Below are positions 478 to 13,606 of a stretch of DNA of 64,000 nt, one piece after another. Numbering within the stretch: position 1 is the stretch's first letter; every line of letters starts with the position of its first letter. The DNA comes from Thermoproteota archaeon (GTDB lineage: Archaea > Korarchaeota > Korarchaeia > Korarchaeales > Korarchaeaceae): NCBI GenBank assembly GCA_026986575.1, contig JALSOH010000006.1, forward strand, positions 434,001 through 498,000, given 5' to 3'. The notes under the pieces are model-generated. The model did no database searches, was not told the DNA's origin, and saw only the letters and a program-made list of their open reading frames with translations. A program made the position numbers and the translations under genes.

Positions 478-1770
478 ATGGCCATCCCAGAGACACTCGC
501 CTCGGTCCTCAATGAGAAATTCAACTCCCTTAGCTTGGTTGAGAGGAGGAAGAGGGATCTCCTAGACCTAGCTGAGGGAATGCTGAAAGAGATAGCCACA
601 TCGTTGGGAAGTGATGGGAGAAGGATAAAATACGTGAAGAAGGGGATCCTTCTCGATGACAGATACCTGATCTTCCTCGCGGAGAAGATGGACTCCATCC
701 TGATAGAGAAGCTGAGCGCGAGGTACAGTCCCGAGGAGATGTTTCTCATCTGCTGGTATTCAACGGAATCGGCTGTTAGCCTCGCTAGGGAACGAAGGGC
801 CAGTCTACTCATTCTATCCAGATCCCAAGTTCTGAGCACGGATACTGAGTTCTCCAAGGCCATACTGAAGCTCTGGGAGGAGAAAGGATTCTATTTAGAA
901 TATTTCAGGAGTCTAAGCTCTGAGGAAAACATTTTCGATCAAGAGACCTTTTTCCTTGCGGAACTCATCGCTCTCAGGGAGTTCTACAGAGAAGAGGTGT
1001 CGAAAAATCTAGATTCCAAGGTCATTGAACTACTTGACGACTTGGAGGAAATGGTGTTGAAAGAGGAAGATGAAACCGAAATTAATAGACTCCTCATCGC
1101 CATACTAGAGGCCTATCCAGCGAAGATAGATGAGAGGAACTCGGCCAAGCCTGGCAAACCGGATGTAATAGCATACTCACCACTTTGGACCTTATTTGAA
1201 CTAAAGAACGAGGAAGCAAATAGGTCTCACGTAGATCAGGCCAGAAAATATGCCAGTGAGTATAGAGGAACCTCTAGATCTCCCTTAGGCGTACCTTGGA
1301 GGACCGTCTTGATAGCGACCGAGGTTTCCCCTGATGTCCACTCCTATGCGCTCAAGAAAGGCATTAGGACTATGACTTGGGGGGTTCTGATAGGCTTTTT
1401 GAGGGATGTATACTCGAAAGGAGTGCCGCTGGAGCTTCTGAGGGACTCACTTGATAGCACCGATCCACAAAACACCTTGGTTTCCCGGGTGGACGATTAC
1501 CTTGAGGCATTGAGGGCCCGAGCTGAATTGCTTAAGGAGATCCTCTCTGTGAACGGAATTGACAGGAGAGAATTGGATAGGATAGTGGCATCGAAAGACT
1601 ATCCGTGGATCGGAGAGCTGGAGGAGATGATTCACGAGCTATCTGGTCCTTTAATCGGTTTCTTAGTCGTAGAAGAGGACCTAATCTCCTACAGAGGGCC
1701 CCATTCCATTAGCAGGGCCCTCAGGGCTCTCGGCTATTTAGGGGGTATGGTAAATGATGGACTCTGGTAG
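478..1770 (+). CDS. Putative PD-(D/E)XK nuclease, first gene of the cas1-cas2-cas4 operon
   Basis: This 430-residue protein opens the operon. The first 210 residues are mostly helical, charged and unrecognised. Residues about 222-300 carry a restriction-endonuclease-like core: Pro228-Asp229, then a strand with Glu241-Leu-Lys243 (ELKN), then Gln254-xxx-Tyr258. This is the D...ExK...QxxxY arrangement of PD-(D/E)XK enzymes, as in RecB and Cas4 nucleases. The frame stays open back to 382, but ATG 478 fits the TATA-like element and starts a better N-terminus (MAIPETLASV). The stop overlaps the next gene by 17 bases, implying translational coupling. It is not Cas4 (no cysteine cluster; the real Cas4 is at 5099) and matches no named Cas protein I know. 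The nuclease assignment is motif-based; substrate and role are unknown. Confidence 0.6.
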   Translation: MAIPETLASVLNEKFNSLSLVERRKRDLLDLAEGMLKEIATSLGSDGRRIKYVKKGILLDDRYLIFLAEKMDSILIEKLSARYSPEEMFLICWYSTESAVSLARERRASLLILSRSQVLSTDTEFSKAILKLWEEKGFYLEYFRSLSSEENIFDQETFFLAELIALREFYREEVSKNLDSKVIELLDDLEEMVLKEEDETEINRLLIAILEAYPAKIDERNSAKPGKPDVIAYSPLWTLFELKNEEANRSHVDQARKYASEYRGTSRSPLGVPWRTVLIATEVSPDVHSYALKKGIRTMTWGVLIGFLRDVYSKGVPLELLRDSLDSTDPQNTLVSRVDDYLEALRARAELLKEILSVNGIDRRELDRIVASKDYPWIGELEEMIHELSGPLIGFLVVEEDLISYRGPHSISRALRALGYLGGMVNDGLW

Positions 1771-2464
1771 TGTGTACATCCCCTCCTACACGTACCCCGG
1801 CCTAGATGTGATCTACCGTGTGAGGGAAGAGGCCAAGGGTATAACAGCTAGACGAATCTCTAAAAGGCTCAATGTGAAGGAATGGAAGGTGAAATCAGCT
1901 CTGGGTATTCTCAGGGTTATGGGACTGATTAGGTCAGAAAGGAAGGGTGGAAGGACGGTCTACACATCTCAGGGAAACGGGTTGACGGAGGCCTACGCTG
2001 GAACCTTCTTCAGGGCTCTTCTGAGGCTTGAGGAAGCTAAGACCTTGGATCTGATAATAAAGGATCTCTGGCCCCGTGATAAGAGAGCGACAGCCCGCAA
2101 GAGGGCCACTTACCTGTTAGCGATGGGGAGGGATCTGGACCTTATAGAACGAAAAGATGGGACCTACACCCTCTCTCCAGTTGGCTTGAGATTGTCTGTT
2201 GCAAGGGCTCTGGAGGAGATCTACGCCATGGAATTGGGTGGGAAGCTTGGAGACTTTGTGAGTCTAACAAAGATCCTGAGCAGACTATCTGAATGGGGGA
2301 TGAAAAGGAAGACAGCCAAGAGGGCCATAATCTCGGCTCTTGAGGAGCTGGAAGCGGACCTCACACCATCCCCGAATCTCTCCTCCAAAGTGAGGAGGGA
2401 CGGTATAATGACGGAAAGGGGATACCTCTACTACCTCACCCTCTGGAACTGGAGGTGGAGGTGA
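1754..2464 (+). CDS. Winged-helix DNA-binding protein of the cas operon
   Basis: A 236-residue protein (ATG 1754, or ATG 1757 directly after). Residues about 25-70 form a classic winged helix-turn-helix: a recognition segment around ITARRISKRLNVKEWKVKSA, then a wing with GLIRSERKGGRTVY. A second helical, arginine-rich block (about 85-160) may be another helix-turn-helix, ending in a wing-like DGTYTLSPVG. The C-terminus has an unusual Trp/Tyr/Arg-rich tail (YYLTLWNWRWR). It lies between the nuclease and the AAA+ ATPase with overlapping or 1-base junctions, so it is probably a DNA-binding subunit or local regulator of that module. It lacks the CARF domain expected of Csa3, the usual archaeal cas-operon regulator, so I do not call it Csa3. 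Confidence 0.6.
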   Translation: MMDSGSVYIPSYTYPGLDVIYRVREEAKGITARRISKRLNVKEWKVKSALGILRVMGLIRSERKGGRTVYTSQGNGLTEAYAGTFFRALLRLEEAKTLDLIIKDLWPRDKRATARKRATYLLAMGRDLDLIERKDGTYTLSPVGLRLSVARALEEIYAMELGGKLGDFVSLTKILSRLSEWGMKRKTAKRAIISALEELEADLTPSPNLSSKVRRDGIMTERGYLYYLTLWNWRWR

Positions 2465-2465
2465 A

Positions 2466-3836
2466 ATGGCCGACTACAGGAAGTACGGCCTCATCAGGAA
2501 CCCCTTCCCTCTGCACGGTTCCTTTCCCTTGGACGACAAATACGAGGAGAGATACGCCAAGCTTCTGATAGGAAGAGATAATCTGAAGGAGTTGCTAAGG
2601 AAGAAACTGGAGAACCTTAGAGCCGGTGAGTCCTCTGCTGTTTTACTTTTACTCGGAGATTATGGCACCGGGAAGACTCACTGCCTGAAGTTCATGCAGC
2701 ATTGGGCTATAAGAAAGTATAGGAACATAATTCCCCTGTACTTCAAGGGTCTCCCCGGGCCGAAAATGAGAGACCTTCTCAGAACCTTCTTAGACTCTTT
2801 GGAAGGGATCTTGGGAAGAGACTACCTGATGAAACTTGCATCAGAATCCCTTAACGTCGAGAGGAGCGGTCTAGTGGATACCAAGAACTTCCTGTTGGCC
2901 CTGGCCTCCAAGAACAGGAGCAAGGTCATCCCGGCCCTCAGGTGGGCCAAGGGTTACGGGCTATCCGATCAGATGAGGGAGAAACTTGGTCTCGTATCGG
3001 ACCTTGATGAATCAGTCGCTAGGGACGTTCTCTCGACCCTCCTAGAGATTATATGGGAGGTGAGGGGTACCAAGACACTGCTTCTAATAGATGAAGTTGA
3101 GGAATTGCTCAAATATGACCAGGAGGATCTTTACGACTTCTATTCCGGTCTCAGAAACCTCATAGACACGGTCTCCACGGGAATGATGATGGTCCTAGCT
3201 TCTACACCCTCCCTACTAAGGGACGAGGAGAAGGGCATCGCAGCTCTAAACCCAGCTTTGAATAGCAGGATCTCGGACGAAAACACCATTATCCTCTCGC
3301 CCCTTGACTCCATAGGAATAAGGGCCATGATAATCTCTTATCTCAGGGAGTTCAGGATACCCAGCGTTAAGAAGCTTATGAGCACATACCCCTTCACTGA
3401 GGAGGCCATCAACCTGATCGCTGATCTGAGCAGGGGAATACCAAGAAACGCCCTGATGCTCGCGAGCATAGCTCTGAGGGAGGCCCTATCCAAGGGAAAG
3501 AAGCAGATAGATGACGCATTCATCAGAACGATCCTAGAGCTAAGGAAGGATGAGTTAGCAGACTTCTTATTGGAATTTAAAGGTGAGGGAGAGGAAAGAA
3601 GAGATTTCAAGGAGAAACCAGTTGGACCAGCTCCTGTGGACGAGAGGACGGCTCTGAAGGTGAAGGTGATCAAAATATTGGAGGAACTCGGCGGAGTGTC
3701 CCCGAGATCTAGGATCCAGCAGAGAGTCAAGGAGATCTCCAGAAAGAAGTTCTACAGGTTGCTCGAGGAGATGAGAGATGAGGGAATGATTGATCTGATC
3801 AAGGTAAGGGGAGGGTACAGGGTGGTCCTCAAATGA
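2466..3836 (+). CDS. AAA+ ATPase with C-terminal winged helix, cas operon
   Basis: A 456-residue P-loop ATPase. The N-terminal YGLIRNPFPLHG recalls the FGL..NPF opening of ExeA/TnsC/TniB-type AAA ATPases. Walker A is GDYGTGKT (64-71), Walker B LLLIDE (205-210), a sensor-1-like AST is near 245, and an arginine in NSRIS (about 268) may be the finger or sensor. An insert of roughly 80 residues separates the Walker motifs. A linker follows (about 370-395), and the last 60 residues form a winged helix (SRIQQRVKEISRKKFYRLLEEM), the AAA+/wHTH layout seen in Orc1/Cdc6. A Shine-Dalgarno-like GAGGTG precedes the ATG, which sits 1 base after the previous stop. The 3' end overlaps cas1 by 4 bases (ATGA). 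The sequence supports an ATP-driven DNA-binding motor or switch; a part in spacer acquisition is inferred from context. Confidence 0.72.
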   Translation: MADYRKYGLIRNPFPLHGSFPLDDKYEERYAKLLIGRDNLKELLRKKLENLRAGESSAVLLLLGDYGTGKTHCLKFMQHWAIRKYRNIIPLYFKGLPGPKMRDLLRTFLDSLEGILGRDYLMKLASESLNVERSGLVDTKNFLLALASKNRSKVIPALRWAKGYGLSDQMREKLGLVSDLDESVARDVLSTLLEIIWEVRGTKTLLLIDEVEELLKYDQEDLYDFYSGLRNLIDTVSTGMMMVLASTPSLLRDEEKGIAALNPALNSRISDENTIILSPLDSIGIRAMIISYLREFRIPSVKKLMSTYPFTEEAINLIADLSRGIPRNALMLASIALREALSKGKKQIDDAFIRTILELRKDELADFLLEFKGEGEERRDFKEKPVGPAPVDERTALKVKVIKILEELGGVSPRSRIQQRVKEISRKKFYRLLEEMRDEGMIDLIKVRGGYRVVLK

Positions 3837-8804: not shown

Positions 8805-10292
8805 ATGTCTTGGCGGAGGATAGCTGAGGTCGTTGCTAGGGAAGCAGCCTACAGGTCGAGGAGGGAGGCTGAAAGGAGCCTCCGCTTCTTCAGGATGAGC
8901 GGAGGGAGCATGCTCAAGTACAACGCGTTCCTCCTCGCTGTGTTTACCTTCATGTCCTCCATGATCGGCCTGAGCGCCTTCAGCGGGCCCGAGGTGGCAT
9001 ATCTAACCCTGATAATGCTGTTCCTGATGGAGATCCTTATGGGAGTGCTATTCATGGCCCTCAACCTCCAAGTACTCGTCTCGGACAGGCTCCTCGATCC
9101 GATATTCCACCTCCCGGTGAGCGAGCCTGAGATAAGGAGGGCGCTCCTCTGGGTGGGCATCTACTGGGGAGGCGCCGCCTTACCCTTCGTCCTGATTCCC
9201 GGGGCTGCCGTGGAGTCCTACCTCTTAAGAGATCCCCTCATCCTGGTGGGGGCGATAATGGGCTCACTCATCGCCTTGGTCCTGTCAATGGCCCTCGGCT
9301 ACTTGGCAGGTTCTCTAGCCACTAGGTACACGAGGAGTCTTAAGGGAAGGGCCGTCTCCACGGTAGTTTGGCTCCTAGTCCTGAGCGTGGGATTCATCAT
9401 GGGCCCCCTTATGGACGCTGTCTCCCAGCTCTACGAGGGCGGAGCCGTTCAAGCTCTGTACATGGTACCCCCGATAAGCTTTGCAGTGATGTTCGAGAGC
9501 TCCGGGGCCCTGTTGTCCTCTCTTCTCCTAGTTCTAGTCTCATATATCCTATTCAGGACTGGTACATCCAGATTCTGGAGGGTGGTCACGAGAGGAGAAG
9601 TCCCCTTGCCCAAGAGACCGGCTAAATGGAGCCTGAGTTTCGGTTTCACTGCCGCCTTAATGAAGGAGGTGAAGATGGCCACTAGGACACCCAGGATCTT
9701 CGCATCCATCATAATGTATTCCTTTATCTTCCCACTCGTCTTTATATTCCCCTTCTTCAGCGAGGGACTGCCACAGGGGTTTTCGGGTTTCCTCGCCCCC
9801 CTGGTCCTCGCGGTAGGGGGTCTCGGTGGCTTCTCCATCCTTTACCTTTACGTGATGGAAGCCTCTGGAGCCAAAACCCTATACTCGCTCCCCCTCACGA
9901 GGGGCAGGGTAGCCTTGGTGAAGTTTTACACATTCCTGACGGTAAACATGCCCGTAGCGATTCTGATAGCGGCAGCGCTCGCTGTGCTAATGCCCAACGG
10001 TGCAATACCCGCCCTCATATATCTGGCAGCCCTCTCCGGATCAGCCCTACTAAATTCACTGACCTACGCTCTTCTCTTACCGAAGGAACCCTCCCACTGG
10101 TCCACCGAGACCTTCGGCAGAACTCTCGTGGCGGTACTCTTCCTGATAGAGGGGATGGCCTACTTCTCCGTGGGAATCGCCTCCCTCTTCCTGCCTAATG
10201 GGCTCCGGGCTACTACTTCCCTCATCACCTTAGCAGCGATCTGGATCGTGGATTCGATCCTCCTCACCGTGAGTGGAAGGAGGGCCTTGTAA
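8805..10292 (+). CDS. ABC transporter permease, polytopic membrane protein
   Basis: A 495-residue integral membrane protein with roughly 12 hydrophobic helices after a basic N-terminus. The segments include FLLAVFTFMSSMIGLSAF and a C-terminal pair around LVAVLFLIEGMAYFSVGI. It follows the ATPase gene by 8 bases with an AGGTGATCT ribosome site, so the two form an exporter operon. Its 3' end overlaps the convergent gene at 10264-11679 by 29 bases. The family resembles large ABC-2-like permeases; substrate unknown. Confidence 0.75.
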   Translation: MSWRRIAEVVAREAAYRSRREAERSLRFFRMSGGSMLKYNAFLLAVFTFMSSMIGLSAFSGPEVAYLTLIMLFLMEILMGVLFMALNLQVLVSDRLLDPIFHLPVSEPEIRRALLWVGIYWGGAALPFVLIPGAAVESYLLRDPLILVGAIMGSLIALVLSMALGYLAGSLATRYTRSLKGRAVSTVVWLLVLSVGFIMGPLMDAVSQLYEGGAVQALYMVPPISFAVMFESSGALLSSLLLVLVSYILFRTGTSRFWRVVTRGEVPLPKRPAKWSLSFGFTAALMKEVKMATRTPRIFASIIMYSFIFPLVFIFPFFSEGLPQGFSGFLAPLVLAVGGLGGFSILYLYVMEASGAKTLYSLPLTRGRVALVKFYTFLTVNMPVAILIAAALAVLMPNGAIPALIYLAALSGSALLNSLTYALLLPKEPSHWSTETFGRTLVAVLFLIEGMAYFSVGIASLFLPNGLRATTSLITLAAIWIVDSILLTVSGRRAL

Positions 10293-11679
10293 CTTCCCTC
10301 TCCCCCTTACTCTCCATCTCCGACTCTGAAGAGGGCCAAAGCAGGTCCTCCCTGAGGGAGCCCATCAGGCACACGTATGATATGAAGATCCCCAAGCTCA
10401 TTACCATTAGTGAGGGCTCCACCAAGTAGGTCAGCCAGACGTTCCCGTATGGATTGGGGGAGTAAGGACCGGGCGGGTTCCCGAGCATGTACAGGTTCAC
10501 GGATATGGCCGCTGCACCGAAGCCCAGCAAGGAGAACCATCCTCCTAGCTTGACCCACTTGGACGTCCCTAGGAGGTCGGCGGGCCAGCTCAGGTATATC
10601 AAGAGGACGATGATCCCCCACATGCCCACCAGGATGTGCCAGTGTCCCACGTTGTAGGCCAGCTCGGCCCAATCCCACAGGGGATCTCTGAAGGGTGGGT
10701 TGAAGAAGAGGGGCTTCCTCAAGCTCATGGCTACCAAGGCACCGGGAATCGTGACCGACAGCCACATTATCGCATTACCGGTGAGGAGCCCCCACTTCAA
10801 ACTATCTCCCTTTGCCTTGAGGCTGAGGAGAGTTGTCCCTACCAGCAGGATGAGGGCTGCTGGAGTTATGATCACATGGGCCACCTTTCCGAACGGCCAG
10901 ACGGCGAAGCTAGCCACTGCAGCCATTAGCTGTCCCAGCCATATCAGGTGGAGGGCTAGCCTAGACACCCCCCTCTCTTCCACCCTCAGGAGGCTCACTG
11001 CTACCAGGAAGACCAAGCTAAGGGCTAGGAGAAGCATCGCGTGCTCGTGAGCAGTAAGAGCCCTCCAAAGGGAATCCTCCTCCGCAAGATCGGGATTGAA
11101 CCGCGCCTCGATGAGGGCCTTCAATAAACCCGATCTCCCCTCCATGAAACTGGATCCTAGGTAACCTCCGATCACGGAGCCAGCGAGCATGAGAACGCCA
11201 GATAACCTTAGGTTGGATTCAAGCAGGTTATGGGGATGAAGCCTCAAAACTGTCAGCAATCCGGCTAGGAATATGGCAGCAAGGCCTGTTATGAATAGCC
11301 CATGCCACAGGTGGAAGGATCCGGCGTAGGAGTAAGCGAGCCCCCCTAAAACTGTAAGGACAGAGCCCACGGAGAACAGGTTTATTAAATCATTTCCCAG
11401 TCTCATCCTCGTTATCAAAGGTATCATGGAGGCATAAATGAGTAGAGAGAAGATTGTGTGGTAGATGAAGGTTATCCTGGCTAAGTACTCTTCTCCTTCA
11501 TTTATCGAAATTATCTCAGCCGCCCCTACGCTCTCATTATATCTACTACCTGGGAGGTGAACGGGCAATCCCAAGTGAACCCTCACTTCGGTGAACTGTG
11601 GAGAGAGAATTACTAGAAAGCCTACTACTAGGACCAGTAGTGTCGACGAGAGAGCAATGTGGAAGCGGAGTTCATTCAT
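10264..11679 (-). CDS. Histidine-rich polytopic membrane protein, possibly heme-copper oxidase/NO reductase-like
   Basis: A 471-residue protein with about 12 transmembrane helices. Many histidines sit in or beside helices: His74 (FIYHTIFSLL), His123/126 (FHLWHGLF), His211/213 (TAHEHAMLLLAL), His268 and His346/348 (GHWHILVGMWG). Intramembrane histidines spaced in this way suggest heme or metal ligation as in subunit I of heme-copper oxidases and NorB, but I do not see a textbook Cu-B HH motif, so this is tentative. The start ATG 11679 follows a GGGGGATCT ribosome site. Its promoter carries a TGACA-N2-TGTCA palindrome shared with the hemerythrin-domain gene at 12296, which supports a redox or NO role. 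Confidence 0.4.
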   Translation of the reverse strand: MNELRFHIALSSTLLVLVVGFLVILSPQFTEVRVHLGLPVHLPGSRYNESVGAAEIISINEGEEYLARITFIYHTIFSLLIYASMIPLITRMRLGNDLINLFSVGSVLTVLGGLAYSYAGSFHLWHGLFITGLAAIFLAGLLTVLRLHPHNLLESNLRLSGVLMLAGSVIGGYLGSSFMEGRSGLLKALIEARFNPDLAEEDSLWRALTAHEHAMLLLALSLVFLVAVSLLRVEERGVSRLALHLIWLGQLMAAVASFAVWPFGKVAHVIITPAALILLVGTTLLSLKAKGDSLKWGLLTGNAIMWLSVTIPGALVAMSLRKPLFFNPPFRDPLWDWAELAYNVGHWHILVGMWGIIVLLIYLSWPADLLGTSKWVKLGGWFSLLGFGAAAISVNLYMLGNPPGPYSPNPYGNVWLTYLVEPSLMVMSLGIFISYVCLMGSLREDLLWPSSESEMESKGEREVTRPSFHSR

Positions 11680-11716
11680 GAGATCCCCCTCTTCTTCCTG
11701 TTCAGACTTATTAACA

Positions 11717-11728
11717 TGACACCTGTCA
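11717..11728. promoter_or_regulatory. Palindromic operator TGACACCTGTCA upstream of the 11679 gene
   Basis: A 12-base inverted repeat with 5-bp perfect arms (TGACA / TGTCA) and a CC centre. It lies 38 bases before the start codon of the minus-strand membrane gene, immediately upstream of its likely TATA element (TTAATAAG, about 11707-11714). The same half-sites with the same spacing recur at the promoter of the gene at 12296. Confidence 0.5.
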
Positions 11729-11795
11729 AATTGATGTAAGCTCGATGACCGATACGCTTCGGCGAGTAGTGAATCGAACTATCGGTTTGAACAGA

Positions 11796-12089
11796 TTATC
11801 TCTTGAGGCGATTCTCCAACTCATTCAATACTTCATCAAAATCCTTACCTCTCCTAATGAGATCACCGATCTGGATCACCAATCTTTCTATCTCCGAGAA
11901 CGTACCCTCGTCAAATTTCGTGTTAAGAATATAGTTTATGAGGGCGCCTATCCTCTCCGGATCCCCTGAGATCTCTTGCAGGTTTCTTAGTTCCTCAACT
12001 ATAGCGCTTTCCCTCATCCTTCTGTATTTGTCCTCGCTATCACTTCTCAAAGCTTCCTCCCAAGATTTGAAGAAGCCCATATTCATCAT
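11796..12089 (-). CDS. Small helical hypothetical protein
   Basis: A 97-residue, highly charged, all-helical soluble protein (start MMNMGFFKSWEEALRS; further ATGs at 12086 and 12080). It contains EISGDPERIGALINYILNTKFDEGTFSEIERLV, described here only in part: helices separated by a DPERIG turn. I recognise no family. A TATA-like TTATTAAG lies about 25 bases upstream, consistent with a leaderless transcript. It stands alone between the redox-linked genes on either side. Confidence 0.55.
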   Translation of the reverse strand: MMNMGFFKSWEEALRSDSEDKYRRMRESAIVEELRNLQEISGDPERIGALINYILNTKFDEGTFSEIERLVIQIGDLIRRGKDFDEVLNELENRLKR

Positions 12090-12242
12090 GAATAGGCGAA
12101 AGCTAGACTTAATAATGTAATCTTAGGCGCGCATTCCTCATGAAAACGAGGCTGGACAAGAATGGAGGTGAGATGATCTCCTGGGGTCCTAGAAAGAAAG
12201 TGTGAGATTACTAACAATATAAACCTGAACCTAGAATTTGAA

Positions 12243-12286
12243 TTAGGTTAACCTAAACTTTAATAGGTAATATGACACATGTCATA
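12243..12286. promoter_or_regulatory. Promoter with two palindromes before the DUF438-hemerythrin gene
   Basis: Three elements lie in a row: a perfect 14-base palindrome TTAGGTTAACCTAA (12243-12256), a TATA-like TTTAATA (12259-12265), and an inverted repeat TATGACA-CA-TGTCATA (12271-12286) with 7-bp arms spanning the expected transcript start. The second palindrome matches the one at 11717. Its position between the TATA box and the start suggests repression; the upstream one overlaps the BRE position. Confidence 0.55.
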
Positions 12287-12295
12287 ATGATGGCT

Positions 12296-13606
12296 ATGAG
12301 CAGGCAGGAGTGGATGGAGGAGAAGCTTGATCAGGTGAGGGAGATCCTTAAGGAGCTACACAAGGGTGCAGATTTTGAGGAACTCAAAGAGAGGTTCAGG
12401 GAGGTACTTCGCGGCGTATCCCCATGGGAAATACCCTTGGTGGAGCAGGAACTGGTGGCCCAAGGCATCTCTCCCCTTGAGATAGCCGCTCTCTGCGATC
12501 TCCACGTCGCCCTCTTCAGGGAATCTCTTATGGACTCCCGCTTGGAGGGTATCGAACCGGGTCACCCTCTGGACACATTCCTTAGGGAGAACGAGGAGAT
12601 CCTCAAAGACTCTGAGAAGCTCATGCTCTACGCGAACTCCCTCCCCAAGGTAGAGGGAGGCAGCAGGAAGGAGGTGTTCGATCAACTCAGTAAACTCGCC
12701 TCGGAGCTGAGGGGGATAAGGAGGCACTTTGTTCGATTACAGTTCCTTCTCTTCCCCTACATAGAGAGGAGAGGACTAACTGCGGTTCCGAGAGTTCTCT
12801 GGACGAAGCAGGATCAGGTAATGGCAAAGATAAGGAAACTGAACCAGATACTATCCGAGGGGAAGTTGGAGGATGCGGAGTACATATTGGAACTCAGGTC
12901 CCTCTCGGACGAGCTCTCTAGGGCATTGGTGGACATGGTGTTCAGGGAGAACAGGATACTCTATCCGACTGTCAGGATCCTACTGAGCGAGGAAGAGTGG
13001 TCCGCCGTCAAGCTGGAAGAGCCCGAGGTGGGTTACTACAAGGTCGAGCCTAGAGAGGGCTGGGAGCCCAAGGATCCGGTGTACCCTCACGAGGTGGAGT
13101 CGGGCATAACCGAGGAGCAGATATCCCGCATGCCCGAGGAAATGAAGGCTATGACCTCCCTCATGGAAAAAAGGGACGATCACGTACTGGTGAGGGCTGG
13201 CGACTTGGAGCTGAAAAACGGTTACATCTCCCTGAAGGAGATGGACGCCCTCCTGAGGACCTTACCCTTTGAGATAACCTTCGTGGATGCTGATGACAGG
13301 CTCCGCTACTACAATTACAGGCCGGGACTCATATTCTACCGCTCGAGGACGGTGCTGGGGAGAAAGGTGGAACTCTGCCACCCGCCGGGCAGCGTCCACA
13401 TAGTGAAGAAGATCGTGGAGGAGTTCAGAGCGGGCAAGAGGGATGTGGCTGAGTTCTGGATAGATATGGGGGGAAGAAAAGTGTACATAAGGTACTTCCC
13501 CGTCAGGGGGGAGGACGGCGAGTACCTTGGAACGGTGGAGGTGGTTCAGGACATTACCGACATAAAGGGGATAGAAGGGGAGAAGAGACTTCTAGGCGAG
13601 GCCTGA
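12296..13606 (+). CDS. DUF438 / hemerythrin-HHE / PAS domain protein
   Basis: About 436 residues from ATG 12296 (in-frame ATGs at 12272, 12287 and 12290; those at 12287-12296 fit a near-leaderless transcript). Three regions are visible: DUF438 (about 5-70; VSPWEIPLVEQELVAQGIS and AALCDLHVALF), a hemerythrin-like HHE bundle (about 85-230; GHPLDTFLRENEEILK and RHFVRLQFLLFPYIERRG), and a PAS domain (about 300-430; LPFEITFVDADDRLRYYN, GRKVELCHPP, GTVEVVQDIT). This architecture is known from proteins thought to sense or manage oxygen, NO or iron. It has no output kinase. The palindromic promoter ties it to the membrane protein at 10264-11679. Confidence 0.85.
   Translation: MSRQEWMEEKLDQVREILKELHKGADFEELKERFREVLRGVSPWEIPLVEQELVAQGISPLEIAALCDLHVALFRESLMDSRLEGIEPGHPLDTFLRENEEILKDSEKLMLYANSLPKVEGGSRKEVFDQLSKLASELRGIRRHFVRLQFLLFPYIERRGLTAVPRVLWTKQDQVMAKIRKLNQILSEGKLEDAEYILELRSLSDELSRALVDMVFRENRILYPTVRILLSEEEWSAVKLEEPEVGYYKVEPREGWEPKDPVYPHEVESGITEEQISRMPEEMKAMTSLMEKRDDHVLVRAGDLELKNGYISLKEMDALLRTLPFEITFVDADDRLRYYNYRPGLIFYRSRTVLGRKVELCHPPGSVHIVKKIVEEFRAGKRDVAEFWIDMGGRKVYIRYFPVRGEDGEYLGTVEVVQDITDIKGIEGEKRLLGEA

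Follow-up and report, generated by a model that had tools for sequence, protein, structure and literature searches.

A palindrome shared by archaeal DUF438-hemerythrin and membrane-protein promoters and its candidate XRE-like regulator

Two neighboring genes and their promoter palindromes

The window (the whole stretch of 64,000 nucleotides that was analysed) contains two genes whose promoters carry the same palindrome. The first one, on the minus strand (10264..11679), encodes a membrane protein of 471 aa with 12 long helices and a predicted heme-copper-oxidase/NO-reductase-like fold. Its TATA-like box, TTAATAAG (11707..11714, minus strand), is kept in the loci L002, L003 and L004, and the palindrome TGACACCTGTCA (TGACAGGTGTCA on the strand of the gene) lies at 11717..11728, just upstream of this box, i.e. 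over the BRE region. The second gene, on the plus strand (12272..13606), encodes a DUF438-hemerythrin-PAS_10 protein (444 aa from the first ATG). We read its TATA-like box as TTTAATAG (12259..12266, plus strand); downstream of it, the palindrome TATGACACATGTCATA (12271..12286) covers the likely transcription and translation start. This site also contains the first ATG of the ORF (12272), so that translation probably begins further on, at 12287-12298. Both genes are directly divergent in genomes G015 and G005, while in the window they are separated by a 97-aa ORF (11796..12089, minus strand) belonging to no Pfam family. A sequence similar by eye to this ORF is found before the membrane gene of G008, and none in L003. 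A second palindrome, TTAGGTTAACCTAA (12243..12256), which the earlier note on this DNA does not mention, closely precedes the TATA box of the DUF438 gene; it is identical in L003, reads TTAGGGCAGCCTAA in L004, and has the form TTAGG-N4-CCTAA in G005. Besides, TTAACCTAAA precedes sites also in L159, L164 and L174.

The earlier note had proposed a shared operator, TGACA-N2-TGTCA, with the same half-sites and spacing at both promoters and overlapping the core promoter in each. The window scan confirmed both sites and their overlap with the BRE region at the membrane gene and with the likely transcription start at the DUF438 gene. The palindrome was thus rightly placed, although its conserved form is narrower: the part shared across promoters of the same genus is TGAC-N4-GTCA. 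The membrane-gene site reads TTGACGGGTGTCATGTTAATAAG in G008 and G015, TGACGCCTGGCATGTTAATAAG in G005 (one mismatch) and TATGACTCGGGTCATTATG in G001, and the DUF438 site is identical to TATGACACATGTCATA in G015 and reads TATGACACACGTCATA in G005, while the DUF438 promoter of G001 has no more than a degenerate site. Absence of the motif from these promoters in close relatives would have refuted the earlier note; the operators in fact recur at both promoters in related genomes, which supports the link that it drew between the two genes.

The genome-wide search that it had suggested returned exactly two copies of TGACANNTGTCA in the 1,911,475 bases of the window's own genome (G000), both at these promoters and 556 bp from each other, against one copy of the reversed control pattern. 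Allowing one mismatch, we found 30 sites genome-wide (15 for the reversed control) and, in the window, 2 matches against 1.49 expected, an unremarkable count. The core TGACNNNNGTCA occurs 28 times in the genome, compared with 12 for its control. Three of these copies are in promoters (those of the DUF438 gene, the membrane gene and an HTH_10 regulator gene), one lies between convergent ORF ends, and 24 fall inside mechanically called ORFs, two of them at or near an ORF start: C9:99608 is 22 nt away from a start codon, and C6:452608 has an offset of 1 from one while also falling within the 3' end of a different ORF. Over 16 genomes of the same genus, ATGACN4GTCAT was found in 21 places (12 for the reversed control), nine of which are promoters of the regulon and the rest inside ORFs (G010:C69, G005:C122 and G015:C62 lay outside this check). 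Hence, the number of sites is near chance, but their placement is not: the two window operators each adjoin a TATA-like box, are 556 bp apart and recur at the same promoters in relatives. A sigma-70 promoter scan was set aside, the host being an archaeon.

A candidate regulator and its linkage to the motif across lineages

The candidate regulator is a protein of ~125-155 aa with an XRE-like helix-turn-helix, the recognition helix TQSAVSRY and a C-terminal C-x2-H-x11-C-x2-C motif. In G000 its gene (C6:422898-423272) lies outside the window, 21 kb from the gene pair. Its distance to the membrane gene is 2.5 kb in G003 and 3 kb in G015; it is found directly after the DUF438 gene in G009-G012, and one gene away from it in G033, where a DUF1858-TusA gene separates the DUF438 gene from that of a 131-aa XRE-like protein. 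The three Cys of the tail are invariant in 22/22 sequences and the His is present in at least 90% (the L169 protein lacks it). Regarding known families, the L103 protein exceeds the cut-off for the generic HTH_5 and HTH_3, that of L164 for HTH_24 and that of L117 for none, and for the regulator of G000 even the generic helix-turn-helix families remain below their cut-offs. The proteins of L117, L098 and L103 did not match Rrf2 at E<=0.1, and a fold search with the regulator model gave no PDB match at E<=0.001.

Using this protein alone, a profile search over named genomes retrieved 19 loci, comprising Thermoproteota/Crenarchaeota MAGs, eleven Thermococcus/Thermococcaceae records, a Desulfurococcales MAG and Ca. 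Hecatella. An intergenic TGAC-N4-GTCA was present in 14 of the 19, and in all 13 loci outside the close relatives of the window (L156-L168), eleven of which are Thermococcaceae; L156, a Thermoproteota archaeon by title, was counted among the 13 on the basis of 46% regulator identity. TGAC ranked first of 256 half-sites in both sets of loci, with the next best reaching 5/13. The five loci with no site are L152-L155, contigs of close relatives with the targets elsewhere or cut off, and the Hecatella locus L169, with TQSAVSRY present and the operator absent. None of 24 relatives sorted as lacking TQSAVSRY had the site, a figure to which we give little weight: the set includes L169, which does carry this helix, as well as some members with no checked helix, and mostly covers 1.5-kb flanks.

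In these loci the site fronts genes for DUF438-hemerythrin-PAS proteins, Hcp (Pfam Prismane, 1.4e-111) and DUF1858-TusA (Pfam, 1.5e-17), and at several of them also the gene of the regulator. The earlier note had tied the hemerythrin/PAS protein to oxygen, NO or iron, and a stress setting of this type is supported by the same operator in front of Hcp and DUF1858 genes elsewhere. Once near-identical promoters were removed, the genomes beyond the close relatives gave 16 promoters of DUF438 or Hcp genes, and the operator was found in 16/16 of them, while 500 shuffles, which keep base composition only, gave a mean of 0.036 and a maximum of 1. Two of the 16 promoters (L174, L177, G055) came from a motif search, and the remaining 14/14 are also positive. 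When 256 half-sites were combined with 9 spacers, TGAC-N4-GTCA was equalled by one other pattern, ATGA-N6-TCAT, which overlaps it.

Among close relatives, promoter sites were present in 6/6 genomes with a TQSAVS[RK]Y regulator (G000, G001, G003, G005, G008 and G015; G033 shares this helix), and in 0/11 DUF438 or membrane-gene promoters of G004, G006, G009-G012, G016 and G022. This last count leaves out the DUF438 genes of G001 (the degenerate site), G004 and G027 and a broken membrane gene in G002, which are site-less too. The TQSAVS[RK]Y regulator was not found in G004 and G006 (both incomplete), G009-G012 or G016, G022 being outside the search; G016 has both genes, and its regulator match is weaker and partial. 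In G009-G012, which account for 4 of the 22 regulator sequences, the recognition helix reads SVAAVSRY, SVSNVSRY or SAAAISRY instead. The DUF438 promoters of these four genomes and of G004 (L097-L100 and L028, corresponding to G010, G011, G012, G009 and G004) carry TTTRCC-N4-GGYAAA, with variable outer bases, abutting the TATA box. The changed helix and changed palindrome of G009-G012 are a candidate case of operator-regulator covariation.

We also built a matrix from the 13 distinct sites of G033 and L156-L168 only and scanned the window with it. The best score was that of the DUF438 site (27.3), followed by the membrane-gene site (19.3), with the third match scoring 8.9; maxima over 30 shuffles, again keeping base composition only, averaged 11.8, with 18.4 as the largest. 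This is the strongest single argument for taking both window motifs as sites of one system. The distant archaeon G033 carries TGACACCTGTCA at its DUF438 gene, where its position with respect to TATA is similar, and two of the three ATGACN4GTCAT copies of this genome lie inside ORFs. G055, of the same family, has five copies: two in the upstream region of Hcp, one at DUF438, one other intergenic, and one, TGACACGTGTCA (L172, position 1502), before a SufB/SufD-like gene (1554-2909, minus strand; named by eye). The latter suggests that the regulon of some genomes may include iron-sulfur assembly.

According to these comparisons, TGAC-N4-GTCA is well supported as an operator, and the XRE-like protein likely reads it. 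Some observations weigh against this: in G000 the regulator gene is 21 kb from the pair and its own promoter has no more than a half-matching site (TTATGACGCGGATAATAG, score 8.1), L169 has the helix without the site, the site at the DUF438 gene of G001 is degenerate, and the operator is placed differently at the membrane gene. The earlier note had expected an archaeal regulator of a kind other than FNR/NNR, and the protein linked to the sites is indeed XRE-like. We found no description of this operator or regulator in the literature searched, which covered few subscription papers, and PMC6316755 contained none of the terms looked for.

Membrane and oxidase-like proteins associated with the operator

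The membrane protein belongs to no Pfam family, and its NCBIfam match is at chance level (E 0.057); the Pfam matches of ten members at E<=1 do not include COX1 (PF00115), and a PDB sequence search with its profile gave chance matches only. By its model it resembles a divergent heme-copper oxidase or NO reductase. The AlphaFold2 model (pLDDT 75.5) has twelve long helices. With Foldseek, matches had E values of at least 0.11, and the first 15 listed were heme-copper oxidases or NO reductase. VIA-align 2 aligned 383 residues with cbb3 at 4.0 A (Z 21.5) and gave Z 21.3 to RdNOR and 20.2 to P. aeruginosa cNOR; the 50 matches listed all belong to the heme-copper oxidase superfamily by their descriptions, with Z from 16.3 to 21.5, the caution level for helical models being about Z 13. 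Identity to these structures is 7-13%. In an alignment of ten sequences, H74, H126, H211, H213, H268, H346 and H348 are invariant. Heme and metal ligands of the heme-copper oxidase superfamily are located in helices 2, 6 and 10 (HxH), and the invariant His are found in these same helices (GHWH; H74, H211/H213 and H346/H348), as numbered from the model rather than by residue-level superposition. The model shares with NorB and heme-copper oxidases the fold and the 12 long helices, and these His may correspond to their ligands; the protein differs from them in having no COX1 match, in an extra invariant H126 in helix 4, and in the His-His pair after helix 7, which was not found in the ten aligned sequences (AH268V/L stands instead). 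The predicted fold agrees with the heme-type membrane protein that the earlier note had suspected. In G002:C44 (L014, L015 and L016) the membrane gene is in separate pieces, some of them in opposite orientation, reflecting an assembly problem or decay.

The third promoter copy of the core in G000 (C9:4447) overlaps the start of a 193-aa protein with a Pfam HTH_10 domain and N-terminal cysteines. On the divergent side of its gene there are a small ORF and the genes of a CoxB-like subunit, with an NCBIfam match (E 2.5e-6) under the family cut-off, and of a COX1-family protein (PF00115, 3.8e-63). TGAC-N4-GTCA is found at the HTH_10 start in G000, G008, G005 and G003, and on the oxidase side in G001. 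The other variants at the oxidase promoter are weaker: TGACACNTGACG in G008, G005 and G003, and TGACACGTAAAGAC alone in G000. These divergent promoters also hold a palindrome with a AACATGTT core, reading GCGAACATGTTCGGT in G000, G008, G005 and G003 (L058, about 2391-2405) and CCTAACATGTTAGG in six genomes of a second clade (L090, L091, L092, L009, L093 and L094). We consider it a probable operator of the HTH_10 protein. Beyond the oxidase operon, relatives carry a ferritin-like gene (L063, L064 and L065; Pfam on the L065 copy) and a Fur-family gene (L063 and L064; Pfam on the L063 copy). In G015 (L096, 3479-4068), the C-terminal part of HTH_10 lies beside the last part of the oxidase gene, as if by deletion, and both operators of the gene pair are intact in this genome despite the apparent loss.

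O2-reducing oxidases of the superfamily are expected to contain the segment HPEVY. The oxidase divergent from HTH_10 has the His-His pair and FHFH, with GLDMIADGDVL in place of HPEVY. A profile comparison between the membrane protein and this oxidase subunit was not significant (hhalign probability 2%). As both oxidase-like proteins are unlike O2 reductases, NO reduction would be a reasonable guess for them, and at most that.

Proposed regulation, signal and comparison with known systems

Taken together, we judge it fairly probable that archaea have a conserved regulon for nitrosative or redox stress, with TGAC-N4-GTCA as its operator and the XRE-like protein as the reader. The protein would bind the operator as a dimer and repress by blocking the transcription start; its Cys/His cluster may hold an iron-sulfur or iron center, and NO or another redox stress would damage this center and release the promoters. 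In Thermococcaceae, the targets would be Hcp, DUF438-hemerythrin-PAS and DUF1858-TusA, joined at several loci by the regulator; in the lineage of the window, they would be DUF438-hemerythrin-PAS, the membrane protein with its predicted heme-copper-oxidase fold, the HTH_10 regulator and possibly the divergent oxidase-like operon. At most targets a TATA-like box precedes the operator by about 6-14 bp (by eye; the boxes of Hcp are unclear), and the operator covers the start, which fits repression by occlusion. The membrane-gene operator is just upstream of TATA in G000, G008 and G015, so there it may block TFB or, as an activator site, recruit it.

We infer NO as the signal because Hcp and DUF438-hemerythrin are targets. 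Hcp was not found in G000, so in this genome the link with NO rests on DUF438-hemerythrin and on the oxidase folds. One could argue that the regulon and its XRE-like reader are real and respond not to NO but to oxygen, to iron or to iron-sulfur damage in general. DUF438-hemerythrin-PAS proteins could sense O2 or iron, and the same direction is indicated by the operator before the gene that we named SufB/SufD-like by eye in G055, and by the ferritin-like and Fur genes near the oxidase operon in relatives. On the other hand, Hcp is linked to NO in bacteria (PMC10210160), and the signature usual for O2 reduction is missing from both oxidase-like proteins. A signal other than NO is accordingly a serious contender, which we hold at somewhat below an even chance.

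A different reader of the operator has a much smaller claim. The HTH_10 protein, which is Bat-like and has a Cys-containing N-terminus, could read TGAC-N4-GTCA and control itself, the oxidase operon and the DUF438 and membrane genes. Its domain is confirmed by Pfam, the operator is present at its start in four genomes, and in the second clade its gene is divergent from the membrane-gene operon. Nevertheless, the AACATGTT-cored palindrome in the divergent promoter of both clades is a more natural site for it, and in six second-clade loci (G004, G006, G009, G010, G012 and G022) this palindrome is present and TGAC-N4-GTCA was not found. Also, the HTH_10 homologue of G033 has no TGAC-N4-GTCA within its 9-kb neighborhood, though the site is found at the DUF438 gene of that genome. 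Given the AACATGTT palindrome and the linkage seen across lineages, we prefer the XRE-like protein as the reader and regard this reading as unlikely. NarO of haloarchaea is a regulator of the Bat/HTH_10 type, and here one regulon target encodes an HTH_10 protein with N-terminal cysteines; this protein is probably one of the targets and has AACATGTT as an operator of its own, rather than being the reader of TGAC-N4-GTCA.

The operator could also be read by an HcpR-like NO regulator from the CRP/FNR family, as in bacteria. According to PMC1274295, the HcpR palindrome of two cyanobacteria is TTGACnnnnGTCAA, fronting hcp and norB beside the regulator gene, and predicted bacterial HcpR regulons often include hemerythrin-like genes along with Hcp. 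The half-site and spacing equal those found here, so the claim of the earlier note that the half-site differs from those of bacterial NO regulators stands only in part; outside the half-sites, most bases do not agree with TTGAC...GTCAA. However, the regulator linked to our loci is of another family, being small and XRE-like with a Cys/His cluster at its C-terminus, and the promoters are archaeal, with TATA boxes and a site position suggesting repression. In G000 we found six HTH_Crp_2 matches, all below the cut-off (the best with 24.2 vs 27 bits), and matches to this family are unspecific, occurring in all 25 genomes searched. We consider a reader of the HcpR kind very improbable. That the sites are chance palindromes near promoters would be in keeping with a window count no higher than expected and with two genome-wide copies against one for the control, but the conservation of the sites at both promoters in relatives and the cross-lineage tests are contrary to it and leave it hardly credible.

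The XRE-like protein can be likened to NsrR and IscR, small helix-turn-helix repressors with a metal center bound by Cys and His ligands and with targets in NO and Fe-S stress. Like them, it is a small helix-turn-helix protein with a proposed metal center and would have targets in NO and Fe-S stress; unlike them, it gives no Rrf2 match at E<=0.1 and would hold its cluster in a short C-terminal tail. The operator of NsrR and IscR is unrelated to TGAC-N4-GTCA. As a more tentative proposal, possible rather than probable, the XRE-like proteins of Thermococcaceae, the Desulfurococcales MAG and the lineage of the window may be an uncharacterised regulator family and the archaeal counterpart of HcpR/NsrR, with an operator converged with that of bacterial HcpR. 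The lineage of the window would then have recruited two non-canonical proteins with the heme-copper-oxidase fold, one of them an unrecognised family reducing or binding NO.

To our knowledge, regulators of NO and nitrosative stress are well described in bacteria, and the literature searched gave us none for the Hcp and hemerythrin genes of hyperthermophilic archaea. Thermococcus is a genetically tractable host group. With a defined operator, a candidate regulator, a list of targets and such a host, the question becomes directly testable. The regulon would provide a hypothesis of function for three groups of proteins: the DUF438-hemerythrin-PAS family, a regulator family to which neither Pfam nor NCBIfam gives a specific name, and a membrane protein outside Pfam whose predicted fold is that of heme-copper oxidases.
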